From Actinomycetes bacterium (GTDB lineage Bacteria; Actinomycetota; Actinomycetes; Actinomycetales; Dermatophilaceae), in assembly GCA_029552065.1 (NCBI GenBank), contig JAKPEG010000001.1:41168-105167 (forward strand): 64,000 nucleotides of DNA, given 5' to 3'. A program made the position numbers and the translations under genes. Below are positions 1 to 64,000 of this stretch, one piece after another; positions within the stretch are counted from its first letter, which is position 1, and every line of letters begins with the position of its first letter. A model generated the notes under the pieces. It was given only the letters and a program-made list of their open reading frames with translations, was not told the origin of the DNA and did not search any database.

Positions 1-548
1 GTCGGTGGGGCTTCGTGGGTAAGCACCGGCTCGTCGACCTCGACGACGGCGTCGAAGGTGTCCAGTGGCAGCTCGCCGTCGCCGAAGGTGTAGGGCATCT
101 GCGGGTTCACCTGGGCGATGACGACCCCGCCGGCCTTGCGGCAGGCCGCGATTGCCGCCGGCAGCACGTTGACTTCGAGTCCCAGCGAGACGCTGCCCCC
201 GTGTGGCACGGAGGTGTGGGCCACGACGATGTCGACGCCCAGCCGCCGTTCGTAGAGCATCGGGACCTGCGAGAGGCGCATGGGGAAGTAGACGAGTCGC
301 TCGTTGTGCCGCATGCCCGCACCGACGAAGCAGGTCTCGAGCATCACGCCGGGCCGCTCGGGTATGCCGTGTGGCGCGTTGAGCAGGTGCAGTCGCCAGG
401 AACCGAGCAACTCGTCGAGCGCGCCGAGCACCCGCAGCGGGGCGCAGCAGTTGCCGCTCGTGACGACCCGCAGGTCGTGTCGACGGATGTCGATGAGCGA
501 GCCGAGCTGGTCGAGGTCGAGAGTGCGCACACCCTCACTCTTGCGCAT
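1..548 (-). CDS. Acetyl-CoA hydrolase/CoA-transferase family protein (N-terminal part; runs off the left edge)
   Basis: Reverse-strand translation MRKSEGVRTLDLDQLGSLIDIRRHDLRVVTSGNCCAPLRVLGALDELLG...LLNAPHGIPERPGVMLETCFVGAGMR...YFPMRLSQVPMLY...GGSVSLGLEVNVLPAAIAACRKAGGVVIAQVNPQMPYTFGDGELP; resembles acetyl-CoA hydrolase/transferase N-domain. Missing from the ORF track because it has no stop inside the window. Confidence 0.75.
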   Translation of the reverse strand, partial: MRKSEGVRTLDLDQLGSLIDIRRHDLRVVTSGNCCAPLRVLGALDELLGSWRLHLLNAPHGIPERPGVMLETCFVGAGMRHNERLVYFPMRLSQVPMLYERRLGVDIVVAHTSVPHGGSVSLGLEVNVLPAAIAACRKAGGVVIAQVNPQMPYTFGDGELPLDTFDAVVEVDEPVLTHEAPP

Positions 549-570
549 CGCGCTGCCCTCGAGCCGGTCC

Positions 571-634
571 CTCGCGAGGGATGGGTTGTTGTCGCCATTT
601 CGGCGCTTGACGACAACAACCCATCCCTCACGAG
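571..634. repeat. Long inverted repeat: 24-nt arms with one mismatch, 16-nt loop
   Basis: CTCGCGAGGGATGGGTTGTTGTCG - ccatttcggcgcttga - CGACAACAACCCATCCCTCACGAG, between divergent genes. Confidence 0.9.
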
Positions 635-758
635 AAGAGGGCGTGGCCACCGGCCGGCGGCCAGGGCGGTGGTGGCCCCGGCGACCACCACGTCCGCGGG
701 GTGAGAGGGTCGGCCACGGGTGGGGTATGCCGTGCCCGCCAGCCCCTAGGGTGGTCGC

Positions 759-1151
759 GTGGAACAACGCGTCTCGTTCAAGGTCTACTACGAGGACACG
801 GACAGCTTGGGCGTCGTCTACTACGCGAACTACTTCAAGTTCATGGAGCGCGGGCGCTCGGAGTTCCTCTCGGGGGAGGGGCGCTCGATCGCCGATTGGA
901 ACGCCGCCGGCTTTGCCCTGGTCGTGCACTCGGTGCAGGCGACCTTCAAGCGCCCGGCCGTGCTCGGCGACACGGTCGACGTCGTGACGACGCTGCGCAT
1001 GCAGTCGGTCTATCGCGGCCGCTTCCACCAGCGGATCGAACGGGCCGGCGAGGTCCTCGTCGAGGGCGATGTGGACGTCGTGTGCCTCAACCAGGACAAC
1101 AGCCTCATCGAGTTCCCGCCGGAGATCGCCGACTTTGCCGAGCGCCCCTGA
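759..1151 (+). CDS. YbgC/FadM-like 4-hydroxybenzoyl-CoA thioesterase family acyl-CoA thioesterase
   Basis: MEQRVSFKVYYEDTDSLGVVYYANYFKFMERGRSEFL: hotdog YEDTDxxGVVYxANY motif. Confidence 0.9.
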   Translation: MEQRVSFKVYYEDTDSLGVVYYANYFKFMERGRSEFLSGEGRSIADWNAAGFALVVHSVQATFKRPAVLGDTVDVVTTLRMQSVYRGRFHQRIERAGEVLVEGDVDVVCLNQDNSLIEFPPEIADFAERP

Positions 1152-1182
1152 CGAGGTCCGTCGGTAGCGCGTCGGTAGCGCG

Positions 1183-2364: not shown

Positions 2365-2373
2365 CCCGACAGG

Positions 2374-3567: not shown

Positions 3568-3665
3568 GCGGTCATCGTGCCAGGTATCAGGCGGGCCGGC
3601 CGTAGCTCCTCCGGCGTACCGAGAGCCTCTCCCCAGGCCCTCCCACACGGAAACGAGAACCACAC

Positions 3666-4109: not shown

Positions 4110-4134
4110 CCGCATCTCACTGCACCTGCGCATC

Positions 4135-4302: not shown

Positions 4303-4387
4303 TGCGCGGCATACGGTATGCCGTTGCTTCGACGTATGCCGGGATCGTCACCATTTCGGACCGCACCCGGCGGACCAATGGCATTCC
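4303..4387. repeat. Intergenic repeat element, copy 1 (contains the CGGCATACGGTATGCCG palindrome)
   Basis: Palindrome at 4307-4323 and CCAATGGCATTC at 4375-4386; same layout as copy 2. Confidence 0.8.
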
Positions 4388-4526: not shown

Positions 4527-4611
4527 TGCGCGGCATACGGTATGCCGTTGCTCCGACGGAAGCCGGAAACATCCGGGTTTGGTGCTCTCGGTCCGGAACC
4601 AATGGCATTCG
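4527..4611. repeat. Intergenic repeat element, copy 2
   Basis: Palindrome at 4531-4547 and CCAATGGCATTC starting at 4599; identical 68-bp offset with an ungapped divergent middle. Confidence 0.8.
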
Positions 4612-4651
4612 GTATGTCGCGGCATGCCCTCGACGCCCGCCCCGAGGTCGC

Positions 4652-15873: not shown

Positions 15874-16673
15874 GAGGCCTTCCTTCCGGAGGGAGTGGCG
15901 GGAGCAGGTGCGAGGGCGTGGACGAGGTAACTGGCGACTTCGCCCGGGGTGGTCCCACGCCCGAAGATCCGGTCCACCCCGAGCCGCCCTTCGGAGCCGT
16001 CCTCGAAGCGCGGTCCGCCTGCCACCAACAGGGGCACCGTCCCGGCCGGGTAGGCCTCGCGGAAGGCTGCGGTCATCTGGGTGGTGTTGTGGATGTGGGC
16101 GTCCTTCTGGGTGACGACCTGGCTGACCAGCACCGCGTCGGCGTGCTCCTCGCGCGCACGGGCCACCAGCTCGGGCACCATGACCTGCGCGCCGAGGTTG
16201 ACCACGCGCAGCTCGGAGTAGCACTCCAGCCCCTTCTCCCCCGCGAAGCCCTTGATGTTGAGGATCGCGTCGATGCCCACGGTGTGCGCGTCGGTGCCGA
16301 TGCACGCGCCGACGACGACGAGCTTGCGGCGCAAGCGTTGCCGGATCGCCTGGTTGACCTCGTATGCCGTGAGCAACGGGTATTCGCGCTCGACGACGCG
16401 CACCTGGGACGGGTCCACGAGGTGGTTGGAGGAGCCGTAGACGACGAAGAAGGTGAAGTCCGGGCCGATCGCCTTGGCGTGGACGACGAGGGCCGGGTCC
16501 ATGCCCATCTTCTTGGCCAGCTGAAGCGCCGCGCCCTCGGCCCGCTTGTCGTGCGGCAGCGGCAGCGTGAAGGAGACCTGGATCATCCCGTCGCCGGTCG
16601 TGTCGCCATAGGGCCGGACGATCTTCGGGGTGAGCTTGCGGGGGGAATCGGTGAGGTGTGTGCGGTTGCTCAT
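15870..16673 (-). CDS. kamE: D-lysine 5,6-aminomutase beta subunit (B12-binding)
   Basis: KIVRPYGDTTGDGMIQVSFTLPLPHDKRAEGAALQLAKKMGM...VVVGACIGTDAHTVGIDAILNIKGFAGEKGLE. Confidence 0.95.
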   Translation of the reverse strand: MSNRTHLTDSPRKLTPKIVRPYGDTTGDGMIQVSFTLPLPHDKRAEGAALQLAKKMGMDPALVVHAKAIGPDFTFFVVYGSSNHLVDPSQVRVVEREYPLLTAYEVNQAIRQRLRRKLVVVGACIGTDAHTVGIDAILNIKGFAGEKGLECYSELRVVNLGAQVMVPELVARAREEHADAVLVSQVVTQKDAHIHNTTQMTAAFREAYPAGTVPLLVAGGPRFEDGSEGRLGVDRIFGRGTTPGEVASYLVHALAPAPATPSGRKAS

Positions 16674-18265
16674 CGCGGCATACCCTCCTGCTGGCCTTCC
16701 TCGAGCAGCGTGATCGCCGGATTGTCGTAGTCGTCGCTGCGGCGCACCACCCCGTCGAGCCCCTTGCCGTGGTCGGCCGGGCGCTTCATCAGACCGAAGG
16801 TGCCCTCGGCGATGGCGTCGAGCAACCCGTCGGTGGCGATCCGGTCGAGCAGGTCGACCGCCTCGCCGAGCACGTGGCGCGCGCGGGTTTGGATGAAGCC
16901 GTCGCGCGGCGGGTGGAAGTCCTCGCGTAGCCCACCCGCGGCGTCGAGCACGTAGCGGACGTTCTGCAGGGCGAGGTCGCGGTCGGACAGGAACGGGGTG
17001 ACGACGGCCTCGGTCATCATCCCGACGAGCAGGATCCCTTGCCCGGTCATGGTGCCGGCGAGGTTGAAGAAGCCGTCGAGCAGATAGCCGCGGAAGACGT
17101 CGCCGGTCATGTGCTTGGTCGGCGGCATCCACTTGAGCGGGGCGTCGGGGAAGAGGGTACGCGCGAGCAGCGCGTGAGCCAGCTCGAGCCGGAAGCTCTC
17201 CGGCACCGACGGGTTGATCTCGAAGGCGTGGCCGAGGCCGAGCTGCCAGTCGGCCAGCCCGGCCTCCTTGGCGAAGTATTCGTTGAGCAACTGGCTGACC
17301 GTCACCGTGTGGGCGGCCTCGATCGCGTCGGCAGTCGTGAGGTAGTTGTCCTCGCCGGTGTTGATGATGATCCCGGCGCGGGCGTGGATCTGGCGACTGA
17401 AGCGCTGGTCGACGAAGGTGCGGATCGGGTTGATGTCGCGGAAGAGGATGCCGTACATCGAGTCGTTGAGCATCATGTCGAGCCGCTCGAGCCCGGCCAG
17501 GGTGGCGATCTCGGGCATGCACAGCCCGGAGGCGTAGTTGGTCAGCCGGATGTAGCGGCCCACCTCGCGGCTGGTCTCGTCGAGCGCGGCCCGCATGAGC
17601 CGGAAGTTCTCCTGGGTGGCGTAGGTGCCGGCGAAGCCCTCGTGGGTGGCGCCCTCGGGCACGAAGTCGAGCAGGCTCTGCCCGGTCGAGCGGATCACCG
17701 CGATGACGTCGGCGCCCTCGCGCGCGGCGGCCTGCGCCTGCGGGATGTCCTCGTCGATGTCGCCGGTCGCGACGATGAGGTAGATCCACGGGGTCTGCTT
17801 CGGGTCACCGTGGCGGCGGATCAACCGCTCGCGGGCGGCTCGCTGCCGGTCGATGGCGCGTATGCCGCGTGCGACGGCCGTGCGCGCGTCGCGGCGGGCC
17901 GCGGCGAGGGGCTTGCCGGACGGCATACCGAAGGCGGTGGAGCCCGCGGCTGCGGCCTGAGCGAGGGTGAGCAGATCGGGGGCGACCCCGCGGCGCAGGG
18001 CGTCGAAGACCGGGGTGGTCACCCCCTGTTCGAGGCCGACCTGGTCGCGGACGGCATCGACGAGGTGGTTGACCCAGGGGTGGCCCTCGTGGTCTGCTCC
18101 GGTGAGCCCCGCCAGGCGAAGCGTGGCTCGCTCCACCGAGACGGTGGTGTGGGCCTGGGCCAGCCGCACGACTGGTGCCCCGGCGCGACGGGCCAAGGTC
18201 CTGGCGCGGCGGACCTGCGCCGGGTCCAGGTGGATGCGGGGGTGGGTGGGCGAGTATGTAGCCAC
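16670..18265 (-). CDS. kamD: D-lysine 5,6-aminomutase alpha subunit
   Basis: (V)ATYSPTHPRIHLDPAQVRRARTLARRAGAPV...TPWIYLIVATGDIDEDIPQAQAAAREGADVIAVIRSTGQSLLDFVPEGATHEGFAGTYATQENFRLMR. Confidence 0.95.
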   Translation of the reverse strand: MATYSPTHPRIHLDPAQVRRARTLARRAGAPVVRLAQAHTTVSVERATLRLAGLTGADHEGHPWVNHLVDAVRDQVGLEQGVTTPVFDALRRGVAPDLLTLAQAAAAGSTAFGMPSGKPLAAARRDARTAVARGIRAIDRQRAARERLIRRHGDPKQTPWIYLIVATGDIDEDIPQAQAAAREGADVIAVIRSTGQSLLDFVPEGATHEGFAGTYATQENFRLMRAALDETSREVGRYIRLTNYASGLCMPEIATLAGLERLDMMLNDSMYGILFRDINPIRTFVDQRFSRQIHARAGIIINTGEDNYLTTADAIEAAHTVTVSQLLNEYFAKEAGLADWQLGLGHAFEINPSVPESFRLELAHALLARTLFPDAPLKWMPPTKHMTGDVFRGYLLDGFFNLAGTMTGQGILLVGMMTEAVVTPFLSDRDLALQNVRYVLDAAGGLREDFHPPRDGFIQTRARHVLGEAVDLLDRIATDGLLDAIAEGTFGLMKRPADHGKGLDGVVRRSDDYDNPAITLLEEGQQEGMPR

Positions 18266-18552
18266 CCTCCGAGCCTAGCAGAAACCGCTGATATTCCCGT
18301 CGAATTGCTCTGCGACGAGAAGATCAGCGGTGATGGCGCGGCGTTCTGCCAGAATCTACTCGATGAAGGCCGGTGGTGCCGGCTCGGCGACCGGGGCGGC
18401 GCGACGGTGGTGCTCGGCGTGCCGACGGGCACAGGCCCAGATCCGCGGGGCGCATGCCTGAAGGCGCCTCCAGCTGCGCCCGGGTGCCCCGCTCGTCGTC
18501 GCTCATGCCCCGCAGTGTCGCCGACCCGGCGAGGATCACGCCGGGGTGGCGA

Positions 18553-19698
18553 TCATCCCTCCAGGCGCGACTCGAAGAGCCCGCGCACGGCGTCGTCGCG
18601 TCGGATGAGCTCCATCGCGTATGCCGCGTGGCCAGGGACATAGCCGTTGCCGACGAGCATCCGCACGTCCGCGGCAAGGCCCTCTGCGCCGAGGGCCGCC
18701 GCGGCGAAGGAGGTCGCCATCGAGAAGAAGATGATGGTGCCGCCCTGGGCCGTCGCCAGGACGGCCGGCTGCTCGCAGCCGGGCACGTCGACGCACACGA
18801 TGGTGACGTCGCACGGCCCTCCCGCCGACTCGACCGCCTCGGCCAGCCCCATGGGAGAGCGGGCGTCGGCGATCACCACGTGATCGGCCAGCCCGGTCGG
18901 TGCCAGCAGCGCTGCCTCGCGCTCGAAGGGCACGACGGCCACGAGCCGGCCGGCGCCGGCTTCCCGGGCCGCGGCCAGCGACAACGAGCCGGACTTGCCG
19001 GCCCCGCCCAGGACGAGCACCGAGGGGGCACCACCCTCGGATGCTGCGCGTGCGGCGGCATACTCCCCCACCACCCGAGCCACGAGCGCGGGTGCGCCGC
19101 ACACGTCCATCACCATGAGCGAGAGCCGCGGATCGAGGTCGTCGGGGATCACCGCGGCGATCGAGCGGGCGAAGAGGATCGCGTGTCCGGTGGCCGGCAC
19201 CTGCTCGGCGAGACCGTCCCAGCGGGCGAGCCCGTCGGTGATGCGCAGCGGGGTGAGCGAGAGGGACACGAGGGTCGCGACCCGGTCGCCCACGGCCAGA
19301 CCGAGTGGGCTCTGCGGACCGACCTCGGCCACCGTGCCCAGGAGCATCCCACCGGAACCGGTCACCGGGTTCTGCATCTTGCCCCGCTCCGCGACGATGG
19401 CGAGCACCTCGGCGCGCACCGCGTCGCCGTCGACCGAGCCCGCGTCGGGGCCCTCGGAGCGGCGGTGCTTCTCCGCGAGCTGGCGATAGGAGGCCGCGTC
19501 GAGGTTGAGCGTGTCGACCTCGATCCGCACCTCTCCCGGCCACAGCTGCGCACGAGTGTCCAACCGGCGGGCGGCCTGCGGCAGGGTGATCTGGGAGCCA
19601 CTCGGCTCGAGCACGCGGTGCAGCCCGACGGCGGACTCCGGGCCCGGGGGAACGTGGCCGGCGGGGTCCGCGTCGCTCGGTGTTACCGACTGGTACAT
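18553..19698 (-). CDS. kdd: L-erythro-3,5-diaminohexanoate dehydrogenase
   Basis: Zinc-less MDR-like dehydrogenase with GSQITLPQAARRLDTRAQLWPGEVRIEVDTLNLDAASYRQL and VLVLGGAGKSGSLSLAAAREAGA; next to kamDE. Confidence 0.9.
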   Translation of the reverse strand: MYQSVTPSDADPAGHVPPGPESAVGLHRVLEPSGSQITLPQAARRLDTRAQLWPGEVRIEVDTLNLDAASYRQLAEKHRRSEGPDAGSVDGDAVRAEVLAIVAERGKMQNPVTGSGGMLLGTVAEVGPQSPLGLAVGDRVATLVSLSLTPLRITDGLARWDGLAEQVPATGHAILFARSIAAVIPDDLDPRLSLMVMDVCGAPALVARVVGEYAAARAASEGGAPSVLVLGGAGKSGSLSLAAAREAGAGRLVAVVPFEREAALLAPTGLADHVVIADARSPMGLAEAVESAGGPCDVTIVCVDVPGCEQPAVLATAQGGTIIFFSMATSFAAAALGAEGLAADVRMLVGNGYVPGHAAYAMELIRRDDAVRGLFESRLEG

Positions 19699-19782
19699 GA
19701 ACTGCTCCTCTGACCGTGATCGACCGCAGGATTTCGTGTGGTTAGTTTACATGACAGGAGATCTTCCGGTATTCTCTCGTTC

Positions 19783-21237
19783 ATGACGCCTGCTCTGGAC
19801 CAGCCCTACGTCTACCGGATGCGCGAGCTCGTCGAGCCCGACTGGACCCGGATGCCCGGCTTTGCCGACGTCACCGCGGCCCAGTGGGCCGACGCCCAGT
19901 GGCAGCGCAGCCACTGCGTGAAGAACGTCCGTCAGTTGCGTGAGGTCATGGGCGACCTGCTCACCGACGACTTCTACGCCGACCTCGAGCGCGACCAGAC
20001 CGAGCGGGCGACGATGTCGATGCTCGTCCCACCGCAGATGCTCAACACCATGGTCCCGGCCACGGGCGAAGGCGAGGCCGGTATGCCGCGTGCCGGCACG
20101 GCATACACGGAGGCCTTCTACGACGACCCGGTGCGGCGCTACATGCTGCCGGTCTTCTCCGACCGCCGCACCGACTGGCCGAGCCACCCGCACGCCACCC
20201 GCGACAGCCTCCACGAGCACGAGATGTGGGCCGTCGAGGGACTCACCCACCGCTACCCGACGAAGGTGCTCGCCGAGCTGCTGCCCACGTGCCCGCAGTA
20301 CTGCGGACACTGCACCCGGATGGACCTGGTCGGCAACTCGACCCCCCAGGTGACCAAGCTGAAGTTCCTCGCGAAGCCAGCCGATCGTCACCAGCAGATG
20401 CTCGACTACCTCGCGGCGACCCCGACCGTCCGCGACGTCGTCGTGAGCGGCGGCGACGTGGCCAACCTGCCGTGGAAGAACCTCGAGGTCTTCCTCGACA
20501 AGCTGCTCGAGATCGAGAACATCCGCGACATCCGGCTCGCGACCAAGGCCCTCATGGCGCTCCCCCAGCACTGGGCGGCGCCCGAGGTCGTCGAGGGGAT
20601 CGGACGGATCACCGCGAAGGCACACGCGCGTGGCGTGCAGGTGGCCATCCACACGCACGTCAACCACGTCAACTCGGTCACCCCGATCGTCGCCGAGACG
20701 GCGCGTAACCTGCTCGATGCGGGGCTGTTCAACATCCGCAACCAGGGTGTCCTCCTCCACGGGGTCAACGACACGCCGGCCGACCTGCTCGACCTGTGCT
20801 TCGCACTGCAGGACAACGCATCGATCACGCCCTACTACTTCTACATGTGCGACATGATCCCGTTCAGCGAGCACTGGCGGCTGTCGCTGGGCCAGGCCCA
20901 GGAGCTGCAGCACGCGATCATGGGCTATCTGCCCGGCTTTGCCACTCCGCGGATCGTCTGTGACGTCCCGTTCGTCGGCAAGCGCTGGGTTCACCAGGTC
21001 GAGGAATACGACCGTGAGCACGGGATCTCCTACTGGCGCAAGAACTACCGCACGTCGATCGAAGCGGCGGACGTCGACGCACTCTCCCGCGAATACGTCT
21101 ACTACGACCCGATCCACACCCTGCCGCTGTCCGGTCAGCGCTGGTGGCCCGGCCAGGTGGACCTCGACTCGGCCCACGAACTCGCGGTGGAGGCCGCTGC
21201 GCTCAGCAGGCTCGCCTCGGTCGGTTCGAAGGCCTGA
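19783..21237 (+). CDS. kamA: Lysine 2,3-aminomutase (radical SAM)
   Basis: CPQYCGHCTRMD radical SAM CxxxCxxC motif; THVNHVNSVTPIVAETARNLLDAGLFNIRNQGVLLHGVND; divergent from kdd. Confidence 0.93.
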   Translation: MTPALDQPYVYRMRELVEPDWTRMPGFADVTAAQWADAQWQRSHCVKNVRQLREVMGDLLTDDFYADLERDQTERATMSMLVPPQMLNTMVPATGEGEAGMPRAGTAYTEAFYDDPVRRYMLPVFSDRRTDWPSHPHATRDSLHEHEMWAVEGLTHRYPTKVLAELLPTCPQYCGHCTRMDLVGNSTPQVTKLKFLAKPADRHQQMLDYLAATPTVRDVVVSGGDVANLPWKNLEVFLDKLLEIENIRDIRLATKALMALPQHWAAPEVVEGIGRITAKAHARGVQVAIHTHVNHVNSVTPIVAETARNLLDAGLFNIRNQGVLLHGVNDTPADLLDLCFALQDNASITPYYFYMCDMIPFSEHWRLSLGQAQELQHAIMGYLPGFATPRIVCDVPFVGKRWVHQVEEYDREHGISYWRKNYRTSIEAADVDALSREYVYYDPIHTLPLSGQRWWPGQVDLDSAHELAVEAAALSRLASVGSKA

Positions 21238-22882: not shown

Positions 22883-22923
22883 AGCCGACAAGTATGCCGC
22901 GTGGCACGGCATACTGCGTCCTC

Positions 22924-27809: not shown

Positions 27810-28037
27810 CGCAGTCCTTTCGTGGATGTCTCGAAGTCGAGTAGTCAACTATCTGACAATAGAGCGGTCACCCGCGGTGTCCGTGCCACCGTGTCGGAGA
27901 ACACGCCCGCTCGCAAGGGATACCCGCGAGTATGCCGCTGCCCGGCATACGTGCGCTGGGTCACCTGGGTGCCACCGCGGTGAGCCGCACCCCCTGCACC
28001 CGCCTGCACCCGCCTGCAGACGCGGTGACGTCCCTCG

Positions 28038-30818
28038 TCAGTCGAGCCGATCGGCGGCGACGACCCCGCGTAGGACGGCGTCGACGGCGGCTCGGGCCTT
28101 GCCCGCCATCGCCGGGTGCGGCGCGAGGTCGGCGATCTGACCGAGCAGGTCCGCGACCTGCTTGCAGCGCCGCACGAAGTCGCCCGCCGCGAGGTCGCCG
28201 CCGCGCAGGACCTCCTCGAGCCGACGCCCCCGGGCCCACCGGTGGATCATCCAGGCGATCCCCGGGTCGGGTGGGTCGCTCGAGGGCACGCCGTGCGCGC
28301 GCTCGGCCTGCTCGAGTTGCGCCCACACCGCGTCCATCTCGGTGAGGGCGGCCGCGACGTCGTCCGTGGGCGCGCGGGGCGCCGCGTCGAGTTCGTCGCG
28401 GCGGGGCTCGTGCACGAGCGCCGAGACGACCGCGGCGAGTCCGGCCGGATCCAACCGCCGCCAGACTCCGCGGCGCAGACATTCGGCCGTGAGCAGGTCA
28501 CGCTCGGTGTAGAGCCGGCGCAGCGTTTCACCCGGCTCGGCGACCCGTTCGCCGTCGGCCTCGAGGTAGCCGAGCGAGGTGAGCAGGCCACAGATCCGGT
28601 CGAAGCTGCGGGCCACCGTGTGCGTGCGCCCCTGCACCTGCTGCACGAGCGCGTCGGTCTCGCGTCGAAGTCGCCACCACCGTTGGGCCCACCGGGCGTG
28701 CTCCTCGCGGTCGGGGCAGGCATGACAGGGATGGGCGCGCAGCTCTCGGCGCACCTCGGCGAGCCGCTCCTCGAGCTCCCCTCCCCCGGCGGTGGGCCGC
28801 CCGGCCCGCCGCGGCGGCCTTTCGTGGGCCACCGCCGCGCGCAGCGCCGCCGCGAGGTCGCGCCGCGCCGCCGGGTTCTTGGGCGTGAAGGACTTGGCGA
28901 TGCGCAACCGGGTGACCGGCTCGACCGGGGTCGGGACGTCGACGAGGGTGAGCCGGCGCAGCTGCCGGTCCTCGGTCACCACGGACGGGCCCAGGACACC
29001 GGCCCGGCGGGCGGTCGCGACGACGACAGCCCAGCCGGCCCGCCGGCCGGCCGGCACCCGGATGACGTCGCCGACCGCGAGCCGCTCGAGCGAGGCGGCC
29101 GCGAGTGCCCGCGCCTCCTCCTGCCGGTCACGGGAGGATTCCTTCTCGAGGTCGCGCTGGCGGGCGCGCAGGGCGGCATACTCGGCGAAGTCGCCGAGGT
29201 GACAGTGCATCTGCTCGGCGAGCTCGGCGAGGCTCGCCTCGTTGCGTCGGATCGAACGTGCCAGGCCCACGACGGCGCGGTCGGCCTGGAACTGGGCGAA
29301 CGAGGTCTCCAAGACCTCGCGCGCCCTCGCCCGACCCACCTGCGCGACGAGGTTGACCGCCATGTTGTTCGTCGGGCGGAAGCTCGAGCGCAGCGGATAG
29401 GTCCGGGTCGAGGCCAAGCCGGCCACGGCCCGCGGATCCAGGGACTGCGACCACAGGACGACGGCGTGCCCCTCGACGTCGATGCCCCGGCGGCCGGCCC
29501 GGCCGGTGAGCTGGGTGTATTCGGCCGGCGTGAGCTCGGCGTGCGTCTCGCCGTTGAACTTCACCAGCCGTTCGAGGACAACCGTCCGGGCGGGCATGTT
29601 GATGCCCAGGGCGAGGGTCTCGGTGGCGAAGACGACCCGGACGAGCCCGGCGGTGAACAACTCCTCGACGATCTCCCGGAAGGTCGGGAGCATGCCCGCG
29701 TGGTGGGCGGCATAGCCGCGGGTGAGCCCGTCGACGAAGTCCCAGTAGCCCAGCACGCCCAGGTCCTCGTCGGGCAGACCGGCCACCCGTTCCTCGACCA
29801 TCCGGCGGATGCGCAACGCCTGATCGTCCAGCACGAGGCGCACCCCCCGCGCGAGCAGTTGACCGACGGCGGCGTCGCAGCCCACCCGGCTGAAGACGAA
29901 GACGATCGCGGGCAGCAGCGCCGCCCGGTCGAGGGACTCGACGACCTCGGCGCGCCCGGGACCCCGGGGCCGCGCTCCCCCGCCACGCCCGTGCGCGCCA
30001 CGGTCGGCCCCCCGTTCGCCACCGCGCCGCCCATGCCCACCGCCATGCCCGCCGCCATGCCCGTATGCCGTGTCCCGCTCCTGCGCACGGATCCGCTGGA
30101 CGAGCTCCGGATTCACCCGCACGCCGACGGCCACGTCGGATCGCGTCACCGTGTTCCGCTCCGCGGAGGCGGCGTCCGGCTCCGGTGCCTGCTCGTCGAG
30201 GAAGAGGTCGTAGAGCTGGCGCCCCACCATCACGTGCTGCCAGAGCGGCACCGGCCGGTGCTCGGACACGACCACATCGACGCCCCCGCGGACCTCGCTC
30301 AACCACTCGCCGAACTCCTCGGCGTTGGAGACGGTCGCGGAGAGCGAGACGACGACGACCTCGGGGGGCAGGTGGATGATCACCTCCTCCCAGACGGCGC
30401 CGCGGAAGCGGTCGGCGAGGTAGTGGACCTCGTCCATGACGACGTAGCCGAGCCCTGCGAGGGTCGGCGAGGCGGCATACATCATGTTGCGTAGCACCTC
30501 GGTCGTCATCACGACGACGGGTGCCTCGCCGTTGACCGAACTGTCGCCGGTGAGCAGTCCCACCCGGTCGGCGCCGTGCCGACGGACCAGGTCGAGGTAC
30601 TTCTGGTTGGACAGGGCCTTGATCGGGGTCGTGTAGAAGGCCTTGCGCCCGGTCGCGAGCGCGAGGTGGACGGCGAACTCGCCGACGACGGTCTTGCCGG
30701 CACCCGTGGGGGCCGCGACGAGCACGCCGCGTCCGGCCTCCACTGCGGCGCAACCGCGCTGTTGGAAGTCGTCGAGGGCGAACGGGTATGCCGCGGCGAA
30801 CCGGTCGAACTCGCTCAC
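28038..30818 (-). CDS. helY: Ski2-like DEAD/DEAH RNA helicase (HelY-like)
   Basis: (V)SEFDRFAAAYPFALDDFQQRGCAAVEAGRGVLVAAPTGAGKTVVGEFAVHLAL...VMDEVHYLADRFRGAVWEEVIIHLP...LTGRAGRRGID. Confidence 0.93.
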   Translation of the reverse strand: MSEFDRFAAAYPFALDDFQQRGCAAVEAGRGVLVAAPTGAGKTVVGEFAVHLALATGRKAFYTTPIKALSNQKYLDLVRRHGADRVGLLTGDSSVNGEAPVVVMTTEVLRNMMYAASPTLAGLGYVVMDEVHYLADRFRGAVWEEVIIHLPPEVVVVSLSATVSNAEEFGEWLSEVRGGVDVVVSEHRPVPLWQHVMVGRQLYDLFLDEQAPEPDAASAERNTVTRSDVAVGVRVNPELVQRIRAQERDTAYGHGGGHGGGHGRRGGERGADRGAHGRGGGARPRGPGRAEVVESLDRAALLPAIVFVFSRVGCDAAVGQLLARGVRLVLDDQALRIRRMVEERVAGLPDEDLGVLGYWDFVDGLTRGYAAHHAGMLPTFREIVEELFTAGLVRVVFATETLALGINMPARTVVLERLVKFNGETHAELTPAEYTQLTGRAGRRGIDVEGHAVVLWSQSLDPRAVAGLASTRTYPLRSSFRPTNNMAVNLVAQVGRARAREVLETSFAQFQADRAVVGLARSIRRNEASLAELAEQMHCHLGDFAEYAALRARQRDLEKESSRDRQEEARALAAASLERLAVGDVIRVPAGRRAGWAVVVATARRAGVLGPSVVTEDRQLRRLTLVDVPTPVEPVTRLRIAKSFTPKNPAARRDLAAALRAAVAHERPPRRAGRPTAGGGELEERLAEVRRELRAHPCHACPDREEHARWAQRWWRLRRETDALVQQVQGRTHTVARSFDRICGLLTSLGYLEADGERVAEPGETLRRLYTERDLLTAECLRRGVWRRLDPAGLAAVVSALVHEPRRDELDAAPRAPTDDVAAALTEMDAVWAQLEQAERAHGVPSSDPPDPGIAWMIHRWARGRRLEEVLRGGDLAAGDFVRRCKQVADLLGQIADLAPHPAMAGKARAAVDAVLRGVVAADRLD

Positions 30819-33399: not shown

Positions 33400-35501
33400 C
33401 AGGCGCCGCCGCGCGGCATACGACGGTCGTCGTCCGTCAGGCCGTATGCCGCGACCGCGGCGGCAGCGCCCTCGCGCACCGCGGTGGCGAGGGCGACCGG
33501 CTCGCGGACGGTCACGAGCCCCCCGAGCCGCCAGGCGAGCCGGACCACCCATCCGGTGTCGGCGGCGCGCAGGCGGACCAGGCGCCGGCCTTCCCCGAGC
33601 TCGTCCACCGACTCGACCGGGTAGTAGTCGGCTACCCAGGCGGCCTCGCGCTCGGTGACGAGTTCGACGAGGGCGTCACCGGCACCGGGCAGGTATGCCG
33701 CCCCGGCGAGGTCGCGACCCCGCGCCTGCTCCGGCGGGACACCGGGGACGTCGAGGACCTCGAGCCCGACGATCCGGTCGAGTCGGAACAGCCGGACGTC
33801 CTCGGCCCGGTGGCACCAGCCCTCGAGATACCAGTGGGCCTCGAGGTTGACCAGGCGCATGGGGTCGACCTCGCGCTCGGTCACCTCGTCCCGGCCGGCG
33901 GACTGGTAGCGCAACCGCAGTCGGCGGGTGTCCTCCAAGGCGCCTCGCAGTCGCGCGACGAGCGCCTCCTGGGCTCCGTCGTCGAGGGTGACGTGCACCC
34001 GGGCCGCGACCCCGGCCGCCTCACCGGTCGCCGCTTCGAGTTTGGCCAGCGCCCCGACGACCGCGTCGCGCTCGGCGATGCCCGGGGTGGCGGCGAGGGC
34101 ACGCAGCCCGACCATGAGAGTGACCGCCTCGTCGATCGTGAGGCGCAGCGGTCGAGCGATCGCGTCGGCGTTGCCGACGTAGACCCGCCCGTCCTCCCAG
34201 TCGGCCTCGATGAGGTCGTCGGGCAGGTGCCCGGGGGTCCCGCAGACGAACAGGAGCAGCAGGTCGGATTCGAGCTGCGCCGGGGTGATGCCGAACTGGT
34301 GGGCCGCGACGTCGAGAGCGACCCCCTGATGGCCGAGCAGCCACGGCACGAGAGCGAGCAGCCGGGAGAGCCGGGCGCTCGCGGACTCCGGGTGCGGCCG
34401 GCTGGGCCGGGCAGCGGACCTCGCCGCCGGTAGGGTCTGCCCGGCCGGCGCCGTCCCGCCTGGCTGCGCGGCACCGTTGCCGGTCGATTGCGGCATACCG
34501 GGTTCCGCTTGCGGCATACCGGGCCGGTGGCGGTCACCCGCCGCCGACAACCGCGCGACGACGGCGTCGCGCACCCGCTCGGGAGCCTCGACGAGCACGT
34601 CGGGGCCGAAGCCGGCCACCTCCTGGGAGAGCGACTCGACGTCGCGGTAGTCGACGTCGACGAGCGACCATTCCTCGTCGATCTCGCCGACGGTGCGAGC
34701 CCGGCGGCGCAGGGTGTTGCCCGCCCCGGCCCGGATGCGCAGGATCGCCGGCGGCTGGTCGACGAACCCCGGCTCCGACGCCCCCACGAGCACCCGGGGC
34801 ACGTGGTCGGCGGGGATCTCGTATGCCGCGGGCCCGCCCCGGAGCGCGACCGGCCCGGCCACCCGGCTGAGCCGGAAGACCCGCTCGGCCCCGCGGTCGA
34901 CGTCCCAGCCGGTGACATACCACCGGCCGCGCCACATCGCCATTCCCCACGGCCGCACGGTCCGGGTGCCCCGCTCGCCGTCGGCGCGAACGTAGTCGAA
35001 GCGGACCTCCTGGCGGTCCTGGACCGACCGACGCATCGGCTCGAAGGCCGGCTCGCTCGTGCGCACCCGTGGCTCGATCCGCACGAGCGAGGTGTCGTCG
35101 AGCTCGACCCCGGCCGAGGCGAGTTTGGCCATCGCGGCGGCGGCGGGGGCGGCCAGGCTCGCCTGGGTCCAACTGCGGGCAGCGAGGGCCAGCGCAGCGA
35201 CCTCGGCGGGGGCGAAGTCGATCGCCGGCAGGGAGTATTCCCGCTTGTCGATCCGATAGCCGGGCTCGTCGTCGGCGCTCGGGTCGACCTGCTGGGTGCT
35301 CAGCGGGATGCCCAGGTCGCGCAGTTCGTCCTTGTCCCGCTCGAACATCCGATCGAAGGCCTCGTCGCCGGCTGTCTGCTGGTACTGCGGGACAGCCGCG
35401 CGCAGCTGGGCCTTGGTGAGGGGGCGGCGGGTCGAGAGCAGCGCGATGACGAGGTTGAGCAGGCGCTCGGTCTTCGCGGCCACCGCCGGCTGGGCGTTCA
35501 C
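33399..35501 (-). CDS. pafBC: Fused PafB-PafC WYL-domain transcriptional regulator
   Basis: Two HTH-WYL modules in one ORF: KTERLLNLVIALLSTRRPLTKAQLR...YQQTAGDEAFDRMFERDKDELRDLGIPL and ASARLSRLLALVPWLLGHQGVALDVAAHQFGITPAQLESDLLLLFVCG. Confidence 0.92.
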   Translation of the reverse strand: MNAQPAVAAKTERLLNLVIALLSTRRPLTKAQLRAAVPQYQQTAGDEAFDRMFERDKDELRDLGIPLSTQQVDPSADDEPGYRIDKREYSLPAIDFAPAEVAALALAARSWTQASLAAPAAAAMAKLASAGVELDDTSLVRIEPRVRTSEPAFEPMRRSVQDRQEVRFDYVRADGERGTRTVRPWGMAMWRGRWYVTGWDVDRGAERVFRLSRVAGPVALRGGPAAYEIPADHVPRVLVGASEPGFVDQPPAILRIRAGAGNTLRRRARTVGEIDEEWSLVDVDYRDVESLSQEVAGFGPDVLVEAPERVRDAVVARLSAAGDRHRPGMPQAEPGMPQSTGNGAAQPGGTAPAGQTLPAARSAARPSRPHPESASARLSRLLALVPWLLGHQGVALDVAAHQFGITPAQLESDLLLLFVCGTPGHLPDDLIEADWEDGRVYVGNADAIARPLRLTIDEAVTLMVGLRALAATPGIAERDAVVGALAKLEAATGEAAGVAARVHVTLDDGAQEALVARLRGALEDTRRLRLRYQSAGRDEVTEREVDPMRLVNLEAHWYLEGWCHRAEDVRLFRLDRIVGLEVLDVPGVPPEQARGRDLAGAAYLPGAGDALVELVTEREAAWVADYYPVESVDELGEGRRLVRLRAADTGWVVRLAWRLGGLVTVREPVALATAVREGAAAAVAAYGLTDDDRRMPRGGA

Positions 35502-35593
35502 TCCCCCGACGCTACCCGGCCGGACCCGGGACACGCCGAGCACGACGGCTTGCGTGTCGCAGGCTCGGGCAGGGTCGCGGAGCCGAAGAACGA

Positions 35594-35625
35594 CGGCGGG
35601 GCCGCCCCGAAGGACGGCCCCGCCG
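35594..35625. terminator. Terminator-like hairpin
   Basis: CGGCGGGGCCG ccccgaagga CGGCCCCGCCG, just past the stop of the minus-strand MFS gene. Confidence 0.7.
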
Positions 35626-35639
35626 ACGTGCACCGATCG

Positions 35640-37013: not shown

Positions 37014-37241
37014 GCCTGGTCCTTCCTTTCCGGAGCATATGAGATGCGCCGACCCGTTTCCCCGAGCGGCGCCTAGAGGGACCGTAGCGGCACCGCCCGG
37101 ATAGTCAAGGGTGCGACTGGCTTCGTTGCGGATTCTTTCCCCTGTGCGGAAGCCCGTCGGCGCGGTGGGTGACCGAATGTCGCAGCTTGTCCGCTACGCG
37201 GCATACATCGCGGTATGCCGCCCGCGCGCGGCGGGAGAGCG

Positions 37242-38363
37242 TCAGTCGGCGGCGAGGATGTCGACGACGAAGACGAGGGTGTCGGTGCCGGAGATCTTCG
37301 GCGGGGACCCGGCTGTGCCGTAGCCGTCGGCGGGCGGGACGACGAGCAGCACCCGCGAGCCGACCGGCTTGCCGACCAACCCGGAGTCCCAGCCCTTGAT
37401 GACGTTGCCGGCACCGAGGATGAAGCTGAAGGAGCGCTGCCGGGTCCACGAGGAGTCGAAGACCGAGCCGTCCTTCCAGAGCACACCCGTGTAGTGGACG
37501 GTGAGCTTCTGACCGGCGGCCACCGGCGCGCCGGCGCCCTGGACGAGCAGCTGGCTCACCGTCGTCGTGGGCGCGGCGGTGCCACTCGGCACCGAGATCG
37601 TGGGTCCGCCGGCCGGGTCGAAGCTCGTCACCGTCGGCAGGCCCGCAACCGGGTCGACAGCCGTGCCCTGGGCCTGGGTGAGCGGTGCCGGTGGCGCCAC
37701 CTGGATCTTCGTGATGTCGGCGACGAGCACGAGCTGCTCGGTGCCGGAGATCCCCATCTCGGGACGTCCCGCGGAACCGAAGGACTCGGCCGGGGGGACG
37801 ACCAGGAGGATCCGCGAACCGACCTGCACGCCGGACAACCCCCGGACCAGACCCGCGATCGTCTGGGCCGGGTCGAGGTCGAGCGTGGTGGACGTGTCTC
37901 CGTCGAAGTCGCTGTCCAGCAGGGTCCCGTCCGAGCCCTTGAACAGGGCGGTCACCGCGGTGACCCGGCTGCCGACGACGCTCACGTCGCCCGAACCAGG
38001 GGTGAGCACCGTGCGGGTCGTCGCGCTCACCGTGACGGGCTTGCTGGCGAAGCTCACCGTGGGGGTCTTCCCGGTGCCGGACGGCGCCGAGACCGTGATC
38101 CCGCCGAGGACCGCCAGGTCGGCGCTCGTGCCGAACGGGCCGACCGGCATCGACGCCAACCCCGTGGCACTGCCCGTGGCGGTGGCCATCGGGGCCGCGC
38201 CGGTCGAGCTGCCGGCCGACGCAGGGGAACTCTGGCCGTCGGTGGAGTTGAGGGTGCTCGACGCGCAGGCGCCGGCGAGGAGCACCACGCCGACGCCCGC
38301 GAGTGCGGACCGACCGGCCCGCGCCAGACGGGAGGTGGGACGCACGGCATATGGTGTGGACAC
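37242..38363 (-). CDS. FKBP-type peptidyl-prolyl isomerase lipoprotein
   Basis: Lipobox VVLLAGACAS; C-terminal VHYTGVLWKDGSVFDSSWTRQRSFSFILGAGNVIKGWDSGLVGKPVGSRVLLVVPPADGYG, and a degenerate upstream FKBP-like half. Confidence 0.88.
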   Translation of the reverse strand: MSTPYAVRPTSRLARAGRSALAGVGVVLLAGACASSTLNSTDGQSSPASAGSSTGAAPMATATGSATGLASMPVGPFGTSADLAVLGGITVSAPSGTGKTPTVSFASKPVTVSATTRTVLTPGSGDVSVVGSRVTAVTALFKGSDGTLLDSDFDGDTSTTLDLDPAQTIAGLVRGLSGVQVGSRILLVVPPAESFGSAGRPEMGISGTEQLVLVADITKIQVAPPAPLTQAQGTAVDPVAGLPTVTSFDPAGGPTISVPSGTAAPTTTVSQLLVQGAGAPVAAGQKLTVHYTGVLWKDGSVFDSSWTRQRSFSFILGAGNVIKGWDSGLVGKPVGSRVLLVVPPADGYGTAGSPPKISGTDTLVFVVDILAAD

Positions 38364-38432
38364 GGCTGACAACCTCACGGGTGGGCGACGCAAACCCCGG
38401 CACTCTACCGCCGGGTGCTGTGTCGCCGCCCT

Positions 38433-47184: not shown

Positions 47185-49680
47185 ATGGATGTCGTGAGCA
47201 CCGCAACCGGACCCCGACACAGGGCAGACAGCACCCCCCACCACACGGCCGTCACGACACCCGACCCGACCTTAGAGGCCCTCGGCCGACTCGACGGCCC
47301 CGAGCTCGCGAGCCTCGACGCGTGGTGGCGGGCCGCCAACTACCTCACCGTCGGCCAGATCTACCTCCAGGCCAATCCCCTGCTGCGTCGGCCGCTTACC
47401 GCCGAGGACATCAAGCCTCGGCTGCTCGGCCACTGGGGCACCTCCCCCGGCCTGTCCTTCGTCTACGCGCACGCGGCGCGGCTCGCGCGGCATACCGGGC
47501 AGGACATCGTCTATTTCGCCGGCCCCGGCCACGGCGGCCCCGCGCTCGTCGCGGCGGCCTACCTCGAGGGCACCTACACCGAATGCTTCCCCCAGGTGAC
47601 CCTCGACGAGGCCGGACTCGTCCGGCTGTTCCGCCAGTTCTCGGCCCCCGGGGGCATCCCCAGCCACGCCTCGGTCACGACGCCCGGGAGCATCCACGAG
47701 GGCGGGGAGCTCGGCTACGTGCTCATCCACGCCTTCGGCGCGGTCATGGACAACCCCGACCTGCTCGCCCTTGCCGTCGTCGGTGACGGCGAAGCGGAGA
47801 CCGGACCGCTCGAGGGCTCGTGGAAGGGGATCTCCTTCCTCAACCCCGCCCGTGACGGGGCGGTGCTCCCGGTGCTCCACCTCAACGGCGGCAAGATTGC
47901 CGGCCCCACGGTGCTCTCCCGCAAGGACCCCGCCGAGGTGCGAGCGCTCTTCGAGGGCCACGGTTACGAGGTCTTCGAGGTCGAGGGCCAGGACCTGCCC
48001 GGCATGCACGAGCGGTATGCCGCGACCCTCGCCGCGGCATACCGGCGGATCCGCGAGATCCAGGCGCTCTGGCGCGGTCCCGACCGGCCCGACCCGGCAC
48101 CCGGCGAGCACGTGCGACCGCGCTGGCCGATGATCGTCCTCCGGTCGCCCAAGGGCTGGACCGGGCCGCACGAGGTCGACGGGACGGTCGTCGAGGGCAC
48201 CTGGCGGGCCCACCAGGTGCCGCTCGCCGGCGTGCGGGAGAACCCCGCCCACCTGGCGATCCTGGAGCAGTGGCTGCGCAGCTACCACCCGGAGGAGCTC
48301 TTCGACGCCGCCGGGGCGCCCACCCCGCTGGTCACCGCCGCCAACCCGGTCGGCGACACCCGGATGTCGGCCACCCCCTATGCCAACGGCGGACTGCTCA
48401 CCCACGACCTCGACCTGCCCGACCTCGCGGCATACGAGATCGGCGTGCCCGCGCCGGCGACCGTGCGCGCGGAGTCGACCCGCGCCCTCGGTGCCCTGTG
48501 CCGCGATCTCTACCGGCGCAATCCGGAGAACTTCCGGCTGTTCTGCCCGGACGAGACCAACTCCAACCGGCTGGGCGCGGTCTTCGAGGTGAGCGAGCGG
48601 GCGTGGATGGAGTCGCTGCACGCCGACGACGTCGCCCTCGGCCCCGACGGCCGGGTGATGGAGGTGCTCTCCGAGCACAACTGCCACGGCTGGCTCGAGG
48701 CCTACACCCTCACCGGGCGGCACGGGCTGTTCGCGACCTACGAGGCCTTCGCCATGGTGAGCGCGAGCCAGACCATCCAGCACGCGAAGTGGCTCGAGGA
48801 GGCGCTGCACCTGCCCTGGCGGGCCAAGGTCCCCAGCCTCAACGTCCTGCTCACCTCGACCGCGTGGCGCAACGACCACAACGGCTTCTCCCACCAGGGC
48901 CCCGGCCTCATCACCACGGTCCTGCAGCACCGTGGCGACGTCGCCCGGATCTACCTGCCCCCGGACGGCAACTGCCTGCTCTCGGTCGCCGACCATGCCC
49001 TGCGCAGCCGCAGCCATGTCAACGTCATCGTCATCGACAAGCAACCCCAACCCCAGTGGCTCACCCTCGAACAGGCCCGCGAGCACTGCCGCCGGGGCGC
49101 CTCGATCTGGGACTGGGCCGGCAGCGAGACCGCCGCGGACGAGCAGGCCGGGCTCCGGCCGGACATCGTCCTGGGCTGCGCGGGAGACGTCGTGACGATG
49201 GAGACCGTCGCGGCCGCGCAGATCCTGCGCGAGCGGCTGCCCGGCCTGCGGGTGCGGGTCGTCAACGTGGTCAACCTCATGACGATGGCCCGGCCCAAGG
49301 ACCACCCCAACGGGATGTCCGACGTCGCCTTCAGCGAGCTGTTCACCGACAGCCAGGACGTGATCTTCAGCTTCCACGGCTATCCCGGGGCGATCCACCA
49401 GCTGGTCCACGGGCGGTCCGACGCCGACCGCTTCCACTGCCGCGGCTTCGTCGAGCAGGGGACGACGACGACCCCGTTCGACATGGTCGTGCGCAACAAG
49501 GCGAGTCGCTTCGACCTGGTCATCGACGCGATCAACAACAGCACACGTCACCCCCGCGGCAGCGCCGAGCTCAAGGCGTGGTGCGAGGAGCAGCTGCGGC
49601 GGCACACGGCATACATCGAGGAGCACCTCGAGGACCTGCCCGAGGTGCGCGACTGGGTGCTGCCCTCCCCCACCCGCTGA
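47185..49680 (+). CDS. xfp: Xylulose-5-phosphate/fructose-6-phosphate phosphoketolase
   Basis: WWRAANYLTVGQIYLQANPLLRRPLTAEDIKPRLLGHWGTSPGLSFVYAH...AGPGHGGPALVAAAYLEGTY...VVGDGEAETGPLEGSWKG; RBS gggagga. Confidence 0.97.
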   Translation: MDVVSTATGPRHRADSTPHHTAVTTPDPTLEALGRLDGPELASLDAWWRAANYLTVGQIYLQANPLLRRPLTAEDIKPRLLGHWGTSPGLSFVYAHAARLARHTGQDIVYFAGPGHGGPALVAAAYLEGTYTECFPQVTLDEAGLVRLFRQFSAPGGIPSHASVTTPGSIHEGGELGYVLIHAFGAVMDNPDLLALAVVGDGEAETGPLEGSWKGISFLNPARDGAVLPVLHLNGGKIAGPTVLSRKDPAEVRALFEGHGYEVFEVEGQDLPGMHERYAATLAAAYRRIREIQALWRGPDRPDPAPGEHVRPRWPMIVLRSPKGWTGPHEVDGTVVEGTWRAHQVPLAGVRENPAHLAILEQWLRSYHPEELFDAAGAPTPLVTAANPVGDTRMSATPYANGGLLTHDLDLPDLAAYEIGVPAPATVRAESTRALGALCRDLYRRNPENFRLFCPDETNSNRLGAVFEVSERAWMESLHADDVALGPDGRVMEVLSEHNCHGWLEAYTLTGRHGLFATYEAFAMVSASQTIQHAKWLEEALHLPWRAKVPSLNVLLTSTAWRNDHNGFSHQGPGLITTVLQHRGDVARIYLPPDGNCLLSVADHALRSRSHVNVIVIDKQPQPQWLTLEQAREHCRRGASIWDWAGSETAADEQAGLRPDIVLGCAGDVVTMETVAAAQILRERLPGLRVRVVNVVNLMTMARPKDHPNGMSDVAFSELFTDSQDVIFSFHGYPGAIHQLVHGRSDADRFHCRGFVEQGTTTTPFDMVVRNKASRFDLVIDAINNSTRHPRGSAELKAWCEEQLRRHTAYIEEHLEDLPEVRDWVLPSPTR

Positions 49681-61428: not shown

Positions 61429-61501
61429 GCGCTTGCATGTTGCCGAATTCAGCCCAAACGGCCCAGACGGCGTCGAGTAAGCGCTCGAGTGTTGCCGATT
61501 T
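61423..61501. repeat. Two direct repeats (27 bp) built on a TAAGCGCT core
   Basis: aagtaagcgcttgcatgttgccgaatt (61423-61449) and gagtaagcgctcgagtgttgccgattt (61475-61501). Confidence 0.8.
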
Positions 61502-61515
61502 GACGGTGGGTCTCG

Positions 61516-61577
61516 GTGCACCCTCGCTCGCGCTGGACGCACCCTCGCTCGCGCTGGACGCACCTCGCTAGCGCTGG
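61516..61577. repeat. Three ~21-bp tandem repeats running into a stop codon
   Basis: gtgcaccctcgctcgcgctgg / acgcaccctcgctcgcgctgg / acgcacctcgctagcgctgg. Confidence 0.9.
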
Positions 61578-62836
61578 ACCCCGGAGAAGAGCACCACGAC
61601 GGGCTCGTCCGCGCGCGCGGTCCCGAAACGGGCCTCCGCCACGAGCGCAGCCAAGCCGGCACTCCCGGTCGGACTCACCCGGGCGCCGACCTCCACCGTC
61701 ATCTCGTATGCTGCCACGACGTCCTGCTCGGCCACGACGATCGGCCGCCCGCCACTCGCACGCATGACCCCGACGTCGGCCTGCCAGTCGTAGGTCTCGT
61801 CGTCGAGGATCCCGTCGGCGAGCGAGTGCGGGTCCTCCCACGGCGTCATGAGTTCGCCCCAGTGCGCCCCGAGGTCCTGCGTCGCCATCCCGCCGGCTCG
61901 CGCCCACGCCCGGGCCAGCGGGGCCCCGCCCGCGGTCTGCACCGTGTCCAGCCGGTATGCCGTGCCCAGCCCCCACCCGACGCACGCCGCCAAGGCGCCG
62001 CCTCCGACCTGGACGAGCACCCGTGCGGGTGCCTCGACCGCCTCCGCGATCTCCCACCCGAGGGTGCGTCCGCCGTCGAGGCACAGCCCGTTCTCCGGGC
62101 CCTGGACGCTGAACGGGATCGCGCCCGCCTGCACCGCCGCGCGGAAGGCGAGCACGGCCGGGTCACCCGGCGGCAGGTCCGGGGACCGCGGGCACCGGTT
62201 CACCTGGGCGCCGAGCCCGTCGAGCAACGCGGCGACGGAGTCGCTCACCGTGTCGGGGACGAAGACCTGCAGCGGCCAGCCGGCCCGCTGGGCGAGGGTC
62301 GCCGCCGCGATGGCCGCGTTGCCGCACGAGGCGATCGCCAGCGGCGGCCGCGGCCCCGGGGCCAGGCCCACAGCCTCGGCCGCGCGCAGGTGCAGCAGGA
62401 TGCCGACCAGATGGCGGGCCTTGTGGCTGCCGCCGACATTGCCGGTCTCGTCCTTCACCCACACCTGGGCACCGACCCGAAGACTGACCTCGTCGTGTGG
62501 ACCGCCCGGCGTCACGTGGAAGCCGTCGGCCACCTCGCGGGTGAGCGCGATGCAGTCGTCCTCGCTCATCCCGTGGGATCGCGCGAACGCCCACCAGGCA
62601 AGGGAACGCCCATAGGAGACAAAGGGATTCGGGTCCTCGATGGGCTTCGGGTCTGGCCCCACGACGACCGGGTGGAGCACGTGGTGGGAGTCGCCGAGCG
62701 TCGCCGCGGGACACCGGAAGGGGTGCACGGCCTCGATCGTCACCTCGGTCGCACACGTGGCACACCGGTATGCCGCGACCGTGCCGCGGCGCGGCATACC
62801 TCCGGCAAGGCCGCCGAGCTCAAAGCGGGCCGTCAC
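61568..62836 (-). CDS. Threonine synthase-like fold type II PLP enzyme
   Basis: [21 protein letters not shown] zinc-ribbon-like N-terminus; [29 protein letters not shown] lysine motif; [21 protein letters not shown]. Confidence 0.82.
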
Positions 62837-64000
62837 GACGCGGCGACCCGGGCGTTGAAGTCCTCGATCATCGCGTCCCAACGCGCGACGTAGCCACGCA
62901 AGCCGCGCCAGAAGTCCTGCGAGCGGCGCTGCTGGAACAGCTCGAAGGGGGTGCCCTGCTGCTCGACCCACGTGTAGTAGCCGAGGTTGAAGATCCGATT
63001 GCGGTCCTTCTCGGTGAGCTCCACGGTCGCGCTCGTCGGCACGTCGGCGAGATGCCGACCCCAGACCTCGGCGGCGTCGAGCTCGGTGAACTCGCCACCG
63101 AAGTCCCGCGCGACGATCTTGGCGATCTCCGAGGGATACATCTGCGAGCCGTCGGTGGCGACGGTGACCACGACGTCGTCGGCACCGAGGTCGAGCACCT
63201 TGGCCGCCGAGATGGCCGAGAGCACGTTGCAGATCGAGGAGAGCCCGAAGTCGACGAGCTGGTCGACGACCTCGGTGGGCACCCCCTTGGTGGCCAGGAA
63301 ACGCTTGCCCACCTCAGTGGTGAAGAGCACCTCGAGCTGGTCGGTCGCGACGTCGCTGATCGCCGCGACGAGGTCGTGGTTCATGATGTTGTGGATGAGC
63401 GGGACGTGCTTGTCACCGATGCCTTGGATGTTGTGCTCGCCGAATCCGTTCTCCAGCAACGTCGGACACTCCAGCGCCTCGGCCGCGAGCACCTTCGTGC
63501 CGTAACGGTCCTTGAGGTACTCTCCCGCCGCGATCGTCCCGGCCGAGCCGGTGGCGCTGGTCATGAGGGCCAGCCGCAGCTCGCGGCCGCTGGCGGCCTT
63601 CACGTGTTCGAAGACGGTCGCCAGCGCCGCACCGGTCACCGTGTAGTGCGCGAGGTGGTTACCGAACTCGGCGAACTGGTTGAAGATGAAGTTGCCCGGG
63701 TCCTTGGCCAACTCGTTGCAGGCGTCGTAGATCTCCTTGACGTTGGACTCTGTGCCGACCGTCTTGATCACGTCTTCGGCCGGGTTCTCACACCACCGGT
63801 CGAGCCAGTCGAAGCGCTCCTTGCTCATCCCCTCGGGCAGGATCGCCACGCCGCGACAGCCCATGAGCCGGCTGATCGCCACCCCACCACGGGCGTAGTT
63901 GCCGGTCGAGGGCCAGATCGCGCGATGACGGGTCGGGTCGAACTGACCGGTCACCAATCGCGGTGCGAGGCAGGCGTATGCCGCGAGCACCTTGTGCGCG
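62833..64000 (-). CDS. Fold type II PLP-dependent (cysteine synthase/TrpB-like) enzyme, truncated by the right edge
   Basis: [39 protein letters not shown]...[37 protein letters not shown]; overlaps the next gene by GTGA. Confidence 0.75.

Follow-up and report, generated by a model that had tools for sequence, protein, structure and literature searches.

A densely iterated, non-palindromic octamer with one-letter dialects in the Dermatophilaceae, a candidate DNA uptake signal

What maintains a single eight-base word at roughly even density throughout the chromosome of an actinobacterium, in genes and between them? The window analysed here, a stretch of 64,000 bp with a GC content of 71.6%, contained 89 exact copies of GTATGCCG (reverse complement CGGCATAC), 47 on the forward and 42 on the reverse strand; the initial annotation, working by eye, had put these figures at ~85 copies and ~46 versus ~40. 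No other 8-mer of the window was as frequent as GTATGCCG, and 100 dinucleotide shuffles of the same sequence gave a mean of 0.96 copies with a maximum of 4. The copies were located as follows.

1..64000, both strands (47 +, 42 -): GTATGCCG / CGGCATAC copies by exact count, the first at 362-369 and the last at 63976-63983

Abundance and sharpness of the octamer

The source genome assembly (3.65 Mb, 239 contigs, 88% complete) contained 2026 + 2039 = 4065 copies of GTATGCCG, while the reversed word, used as a control in the same 3.65 Mb, occurred 83 + 69 = 152 times. Density was 0.9-1.9/kb in each readable genome piece sampled, three masked pieces (N) having been excluded from the readable set. 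The strong excess over chance that the initial annotation had claimed held under Markov correction: 374 copies were counted in 310 kb of the genome's own sequence, for which an order-3 Markov model predicts 3.1, a 121-fold enrichment. The 24 one-mismatch words pooled gave 207 copies against 164 expected in the same 310 kb under the same model, and CTATGCCG was the only one of them well above background (33 against 5.6 expected).

Downstream of the octamer, position +9 was C in 54%, T in 34% and A in 1% of copies and position +10 was G in 59%; G/C was weakly preferred at the fourth base past the Y. CCGGTATGCCG was over-represented (46 against 0.9), and the bases upstream of GTATGCCG carried little information. 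The best written form of the word is GTATGCCGYG, the extension already proposed from reading the window. Spacing was near random and, close pairs apart, somewhat even (CV 0.87). Copies were both intergenic and genic, the latter in all six reading frames, which bears out the earlier statement that they lie in genes as well as between them. In one relative, G016, the octamer was embedded in a longer conserved word, approximately CGTATGCCGCTGRGCY, which has more the look of a dispersed repeat than the octamer alone.

A word this short, non-palindromic and very frequent could be a polar segregation or repair signal of the KOPS or Chi kind. The two orientations were equal and interspersed in the window (47/42), and they were balanced genome-wide (2026/2039) and in 53 of 53 genus representatives. 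Interspersion within 64 kb excludes replichore polarity, for which genome-wide balance alone would be insufficient. A polar signal was therefore rejected, as the initial annotation had anticipated, and is considered very improbable.

Synonymous accommodation and close inverted pairs

The commonest coding frames of GTATGCCG are Tyr-Ala and Ala-Tyr, so the word might be a by-product of codon or dipeptide usage. Tyr-Ala was encoded by TATGCC in 98 of 102 cases where the flanks fitted the motif and in ~57 of 181 elsewhere (the tested table has 179). Ala-Tyr was encoded by GCATAC in 119 of 134 cases after xCG and in 2 of 148 elsewhere. Of 83 ATA codons, 40 (48%) lay within the motif. The dipeptides themselves occurred at merely 1.1-1.6 times their expected frequency. 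Gene calls were crude (GC3-based), which should blur such codon contrasts and not create them. Because disfavoured codons are chosen within the motif and the dipeptides are barely enriched, GTATGCCG is maintained at the DNA level, mainly through synonymous choice of disfavoured codons. The initial annotation had named Tyr-Ala/Ala-Tyr codon usage as an explanation that would refute its proposal; the octamer survives it, since TAT and GCA are minority codons that are preferred where they complete the motif.

Codon or dipeptide usage was rejected on these grounds, together with the occurrence of copies in six frames and between genes. An adapter or assembly artefact was considered alongside it, since the Illumina P7 adapter includes CGGCATAC. 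The longer adapter word that was tested does not occur, the sequence contexts of the copies vary, and the octamer is present in the isolate genomes of Flexivirga meconopsidis and Nostocoides japonicum; this source was likewise rejected. By-product or artefact can be given next to no weight as an explanation.

Close pairs of GTATGCCG (<=40 bp) numbered 24, of which 22 were inverted (p = 1.8e-5). Seven pairs of the window were subjected to RNA folding and gave stems of at least 7 base pairs each. Pairs in the window included the following, with hairpin energies where calculated.

4307..4341: inverted pair (-,+) at 4307-4323, with a third copy at 4334
4531..4547: intergenic inverted pair, ~110 bp 3' of the end of a katG-type catalase/peroxidase gene; hairpin -7.7 kcal/mol
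20081..20106: inverted pair within a lysine 2,3-aminomutase-like gene; hairpin -14.2 kcal/mol
22892..22914: flavin monooxygenase-like gene, inverted pair at its 5' edge; hairpin -14.3 kcal/mol
27930..27950: intergenic inverted pair, ~98 bp 3' of the end of the gene at 28038-31301 (-); hairpin -12.3 kcal/mol
33414..33451: inverted pair close to the 3' end of the gene at 33399-35633 (-)
37199..37220: intergenic inverted pair, ~32 bp 3' of the end of the gene at 37242-38393 (-); hairpin -11.2 kcal/mol
48015..48042: inverted pair within a phosphoketolase gene; hairpin -17.6 kcal/mol
62768..62799: inverted pair close to gene ends; hairpin -22.3 kcal/mol

Several of these pairs lie just 3' of gene ends, and T runs were absent downstream of the pairs; from their position a role in termination is possible.

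Family restriction and repeated dialect switches

The distribution of the word was surveyed in the family, taken to be Dermatophilaceae in the wide GTDB sense, using one representative of each of 53 genera. GTATGCCG was strong (>0.2/kb; range 0.22-1.13) in 30 of the 53 and below 0.09/kb in the other 23, with a gap between the two groups. It was not enriched in more than 230 genomes from 19 other families of the order, nor in a sample of the phylum, where the highest density was ~0.09/kb (G656). GTATGCCG is a Dermatophilaceae trait, with absences. A phage of a Tetrasphaera host, the one phage genome used as a control, carried 2 copies in 49 kb against 0.6 expected.

Several GTATGCCG-poor relatives contained another over-represented word, different by one letter and at similar density. 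Samples of 20-84 kb were searched for such dialects in the GTATGCCG-poor genomes, a depth too thin in many motif-less genera to exclude other words. Whole-genome counts of GTACGCCG were 3903 in G040, 2618 in G048, 2216 in G024, 1463 in G070 and 1359 in G025, with ~40-750 in the others; local counts showed this dialect to be better written GTACGNCG. GGATGCCG occurred 4480 times in G103, 3949 in G027, 3816 in G017, 2195 in G044 and, more weakly, 1336 in G002, with ~260-1030 in the others. The dialect of G004 was GTATGNCG by local counts, and the word of G021 may be GTATGCG. Two further genera (G037, G038) had a dissimilar word, CGAAGGGGG / CGAAGGGG(G), ~tenfold enriched and on both strands of genes, possibly a dialect of independent origin, possibly a signal of another type.

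Switches were found at short evolutionary range. Within one genus, G026 and G096 use GTATGCCG and G070 uses GTACGNCG. The genome of G044 is mixed, with 1217 copies of GTATGCCG and 2195 of GGATGCCG, and the corresponding counts in its congener G103 are 361 and 4480; judged from these counts the two are likely to represent a dialect transition. In a PafA tree of 30 genomes, a single-gene tree, well-supported branches force at least 5 changes of the GTAC state. When a word with thousands of copies changes repeatedly by one letter, a reading factor of changing specificity is implied.

Two local enrichments were seen during the dialect search. In the first 20 kb of G041, TCGCTACG, CCCTCCTA and similar words were enriched ~15- to 25-fold, which could reflect a local repeat or a further signal. 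The first 20 kb of G024 contained ~28 copies of units with CCGTCGAA and strong internal repetition, probably a repetitive surface-protein gene; this region was excluded from the word statistics.

One reader to be weighed against these patterns is a nucleoid-associated, recombination or repair protein requiring ~1 site/kb, the dialects then reflecting drift of its specificity. The even, strand-balanced and genome-wide spread of the word would suit such a protein. However, repeated re-specification of an essential protein with thousands of sites should be difficult, and here the word differs between members of one genus and is missing from entire genera; it would also be expected in the sister families, whose sampled genomes lack it. 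We regard a chromosomal protein as an unlikely explanation.

The main rival of an uptake signal is a bias of the kind proposed for cyanobacterial HIP1, in which a methyltransferase recognises the word, linked repair biases mutation and replacement of the enzyme produces a new dialect, so that the word might have no function of its own. HIP1 is, like GTATGCCG, a densely iterated octamer, and variant words replace it in some genomes (PMC4390886). Over-represented words of cyanobacteria switch with their methyltransferases, and a mismatch-repair bias has been proposed (PMC4390886); the dialect switches of the family would fit enzyme replacement. However, HIP words are palindromic and HIP1 is methyltransferase-associated, whereas GTATGCCG differs from its reverse complement. 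A simple palindromic enzyme site would not give the degenerate position of GTACGNCG, an 8-bp word this sharp or the Y-G extension, and a methyltransferase does not predict close inverted pairs. Probability is accordingly low for this explanation, although it is the one most to be set against an uptake signal.

The initial annotation had likened the octamer to HIP1 or to a DNA-uptake-type repeat. The likeness to HIP1 stands for density and fails for palindromy. The uptake type is the better fit because the octamer is no palindrome and has close inverted pairs and one-letter dialects, and because comEA/comEC and Tad ATPases are present. The annotation had listed mechanisms, none singled out, and its interpretation is supported overall. 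It knew of no described equivalent of the octamer, and none was found in the open-access literature, where matches to the word lay in unrelated sequences, among them primers and adapters.

Competence genes and a candidate uptake signal

Of 60 genomes, 57 carried ComEC, and ComEA adjoined it in 25 of 26 loci examined; both comEA and comEC have open reading frames in the source genome of the window. Tad-type ATPases were found in 29 of 30 genomes, their class being set by score and by the absence of other type IV pilus markers and not from a reading of the loci. ComEA, ComEC and Tad ATPases are the genes required for transformation of Micrococcus luteus (PMC4322843), a member of the same phylum with the same predicted machine. 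The difference is that the Micrococcus luteus papers PMC4322843 and PMC8467076 mention no uptake sequence. Natural transformation of the motif-bearing genera was not documented in the open-access papers searched.

PilM was found in only 2 of 60 genomes, and the N_methyl type IV pilin signature was above cut-off in 1 of 30. A type IVa pilus was therefore considered unlikely as the common reader. In G026, and in no other sampled genome, PilM occurred with the N-methyl pilin signature and a strong PilB-type ATPase, which has the appearance of a type IVa pilus cluster.

Presence or absence of ComEC or of a Tad ATPase is unsupported as the cause of motif presence, both being nearly universal. Among motif-less genomes, comEC of G049 lacks ~250 N-terminal residues and has no comEA, DegV or leuS beside it, which suggests that competence was lost in this small genome; G007 has no pilus ATPase above cut-off. 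These two cases support an uptake signal. It is weakened by the many motif-less genomes and genera that retain comEA, comEC and Tad ATPases, so that the machinery does not predict the word. Between G026 and G070, which use sister dialects, ComEC identity was 63% and that of most neighbours 78-85%. This divergence of ComEA/ComEC was considered as a clue to the receptor; another neighbour was equally diverged, so no conclusion was drawn.

An uptake signal was favoured because one-letter dialects, a switch within a genus and the mixed genome of G044 are as expected of a changing reading factor. The features of such a signal found here were over-representation on two strands, non-palindromy with hairpin-capable inverted pairs, dialects, and the co-occurrence of ComEC, ComEA and pilus genes. 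We conclude that GTATGCCG, as GTATGCCGYG, is probably an independently evolved DNA uptake signal of naturally transformable Dermatophilaceae. A surface DNA receptor would prefer DNA bearing the word in either orientation; it would probably belong to a Tad/Flp-type competence pilus that feeds ComEA/ComEC, as a pilin or an associated protein. Word-bearing fragments would be taken up and recombined more often, the word would accumulate, and it would be kept near perfect at ~1/kb wherever coding permits, mostly through synonymous change. A shift in receptor specificity would then lead to rewriting of the genome to a new dialect (GTACGNCG, GGATGCCG or GTATGNCG).

The closest known parallel is the DUS of Neisseriaceae, also a short non-palindromic word with thousands of copies on both strands, genic, with inverted pairs, restricted to a family and with one-letter dialects and mixed genomes (PMC3630211). 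The differences are that GTATGCCG occurs in an unrelated phylum, that its dialects switch even within a genus and that nearly all Dermatophilaceae genomes are without a type IVa pilus/PilM; a receptor of the ComP minor pilin type is thus unlikely. The CTG core of DUS is absent from GTATGCCG and from its reverse complement, and GTATGCCG is not to be classed as a strict neisserial DUS. One-mismatch words are also scarcer relative to perfect copies (207 vs 374) than in Neisseria, where raw ratios of 1:1.15 to 1:1.45 are given for motifs of other lengths than GTATGCCG (PMC3630211), and this weakens the case for an uptake signal. The USS of Pasteurellaceae is likewise abundant and strand-balanced and has two dialects with a constant core (PMC12616744). 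It differs in being another word, a longer and discontinuous motif, found in Gram-negative bacteria with a type IV minor pilin as proposed receptor. Among known iterated words, the signals of these two families resemble GTATGCCG in lacking a palindrome, in numbering hundreds to thousands of copies, in lying in either orientation and in having inverted pairs and dialects (PMC3630211, PMC12616744).

A more specific reading is that a monoderm actinobacterial family has independently evolved an uptake language with dialects that switch even between congeneric species, and that its reader is a new kind of sequence-specific receptor, located at ComEA or on a Tad/Flp competence pilus, and not a type IVa minor pilin. 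Our preference for this reading is slight. To our knowledge, the Gram-negative Neisseriaceae and Pasteurellaceae are the only families with a described uptake signal, and with two known cases the properties of one machine type are inseparable from a general principle. If an uptake signal is confirmed, the Dermatophilaceae would provide a third, unrelated and Gram-positive case, and self-preferring transformation would be seen to evolve repeatedly. With its dozens of genera, its several dialects, one mixed genome and the genera that lack the word, the family forms a natural experiment in which the receptor could be sought by co-variation and the rewriting of genomes followed after a change of specificity. 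Flexivirga, Nostocoides and similar genera would also be predicted to be naturally competent, which would be of practical use for their genetics.

Among its other contents, the window carries genes for Pup ligase (PafA) and Dop, which are actinobacterial markers; among named genomes, the closest PafA matches included ones from Dermatophilaceae, Phycicoccus and Flexivirga. At 16670-21237 a gene for the lysine 5,6-aminomutase alpha subunit lies near the lysine 2,3-aminomutase-like radical-SAM gene, a pairing that suggests lysine degradation genes.
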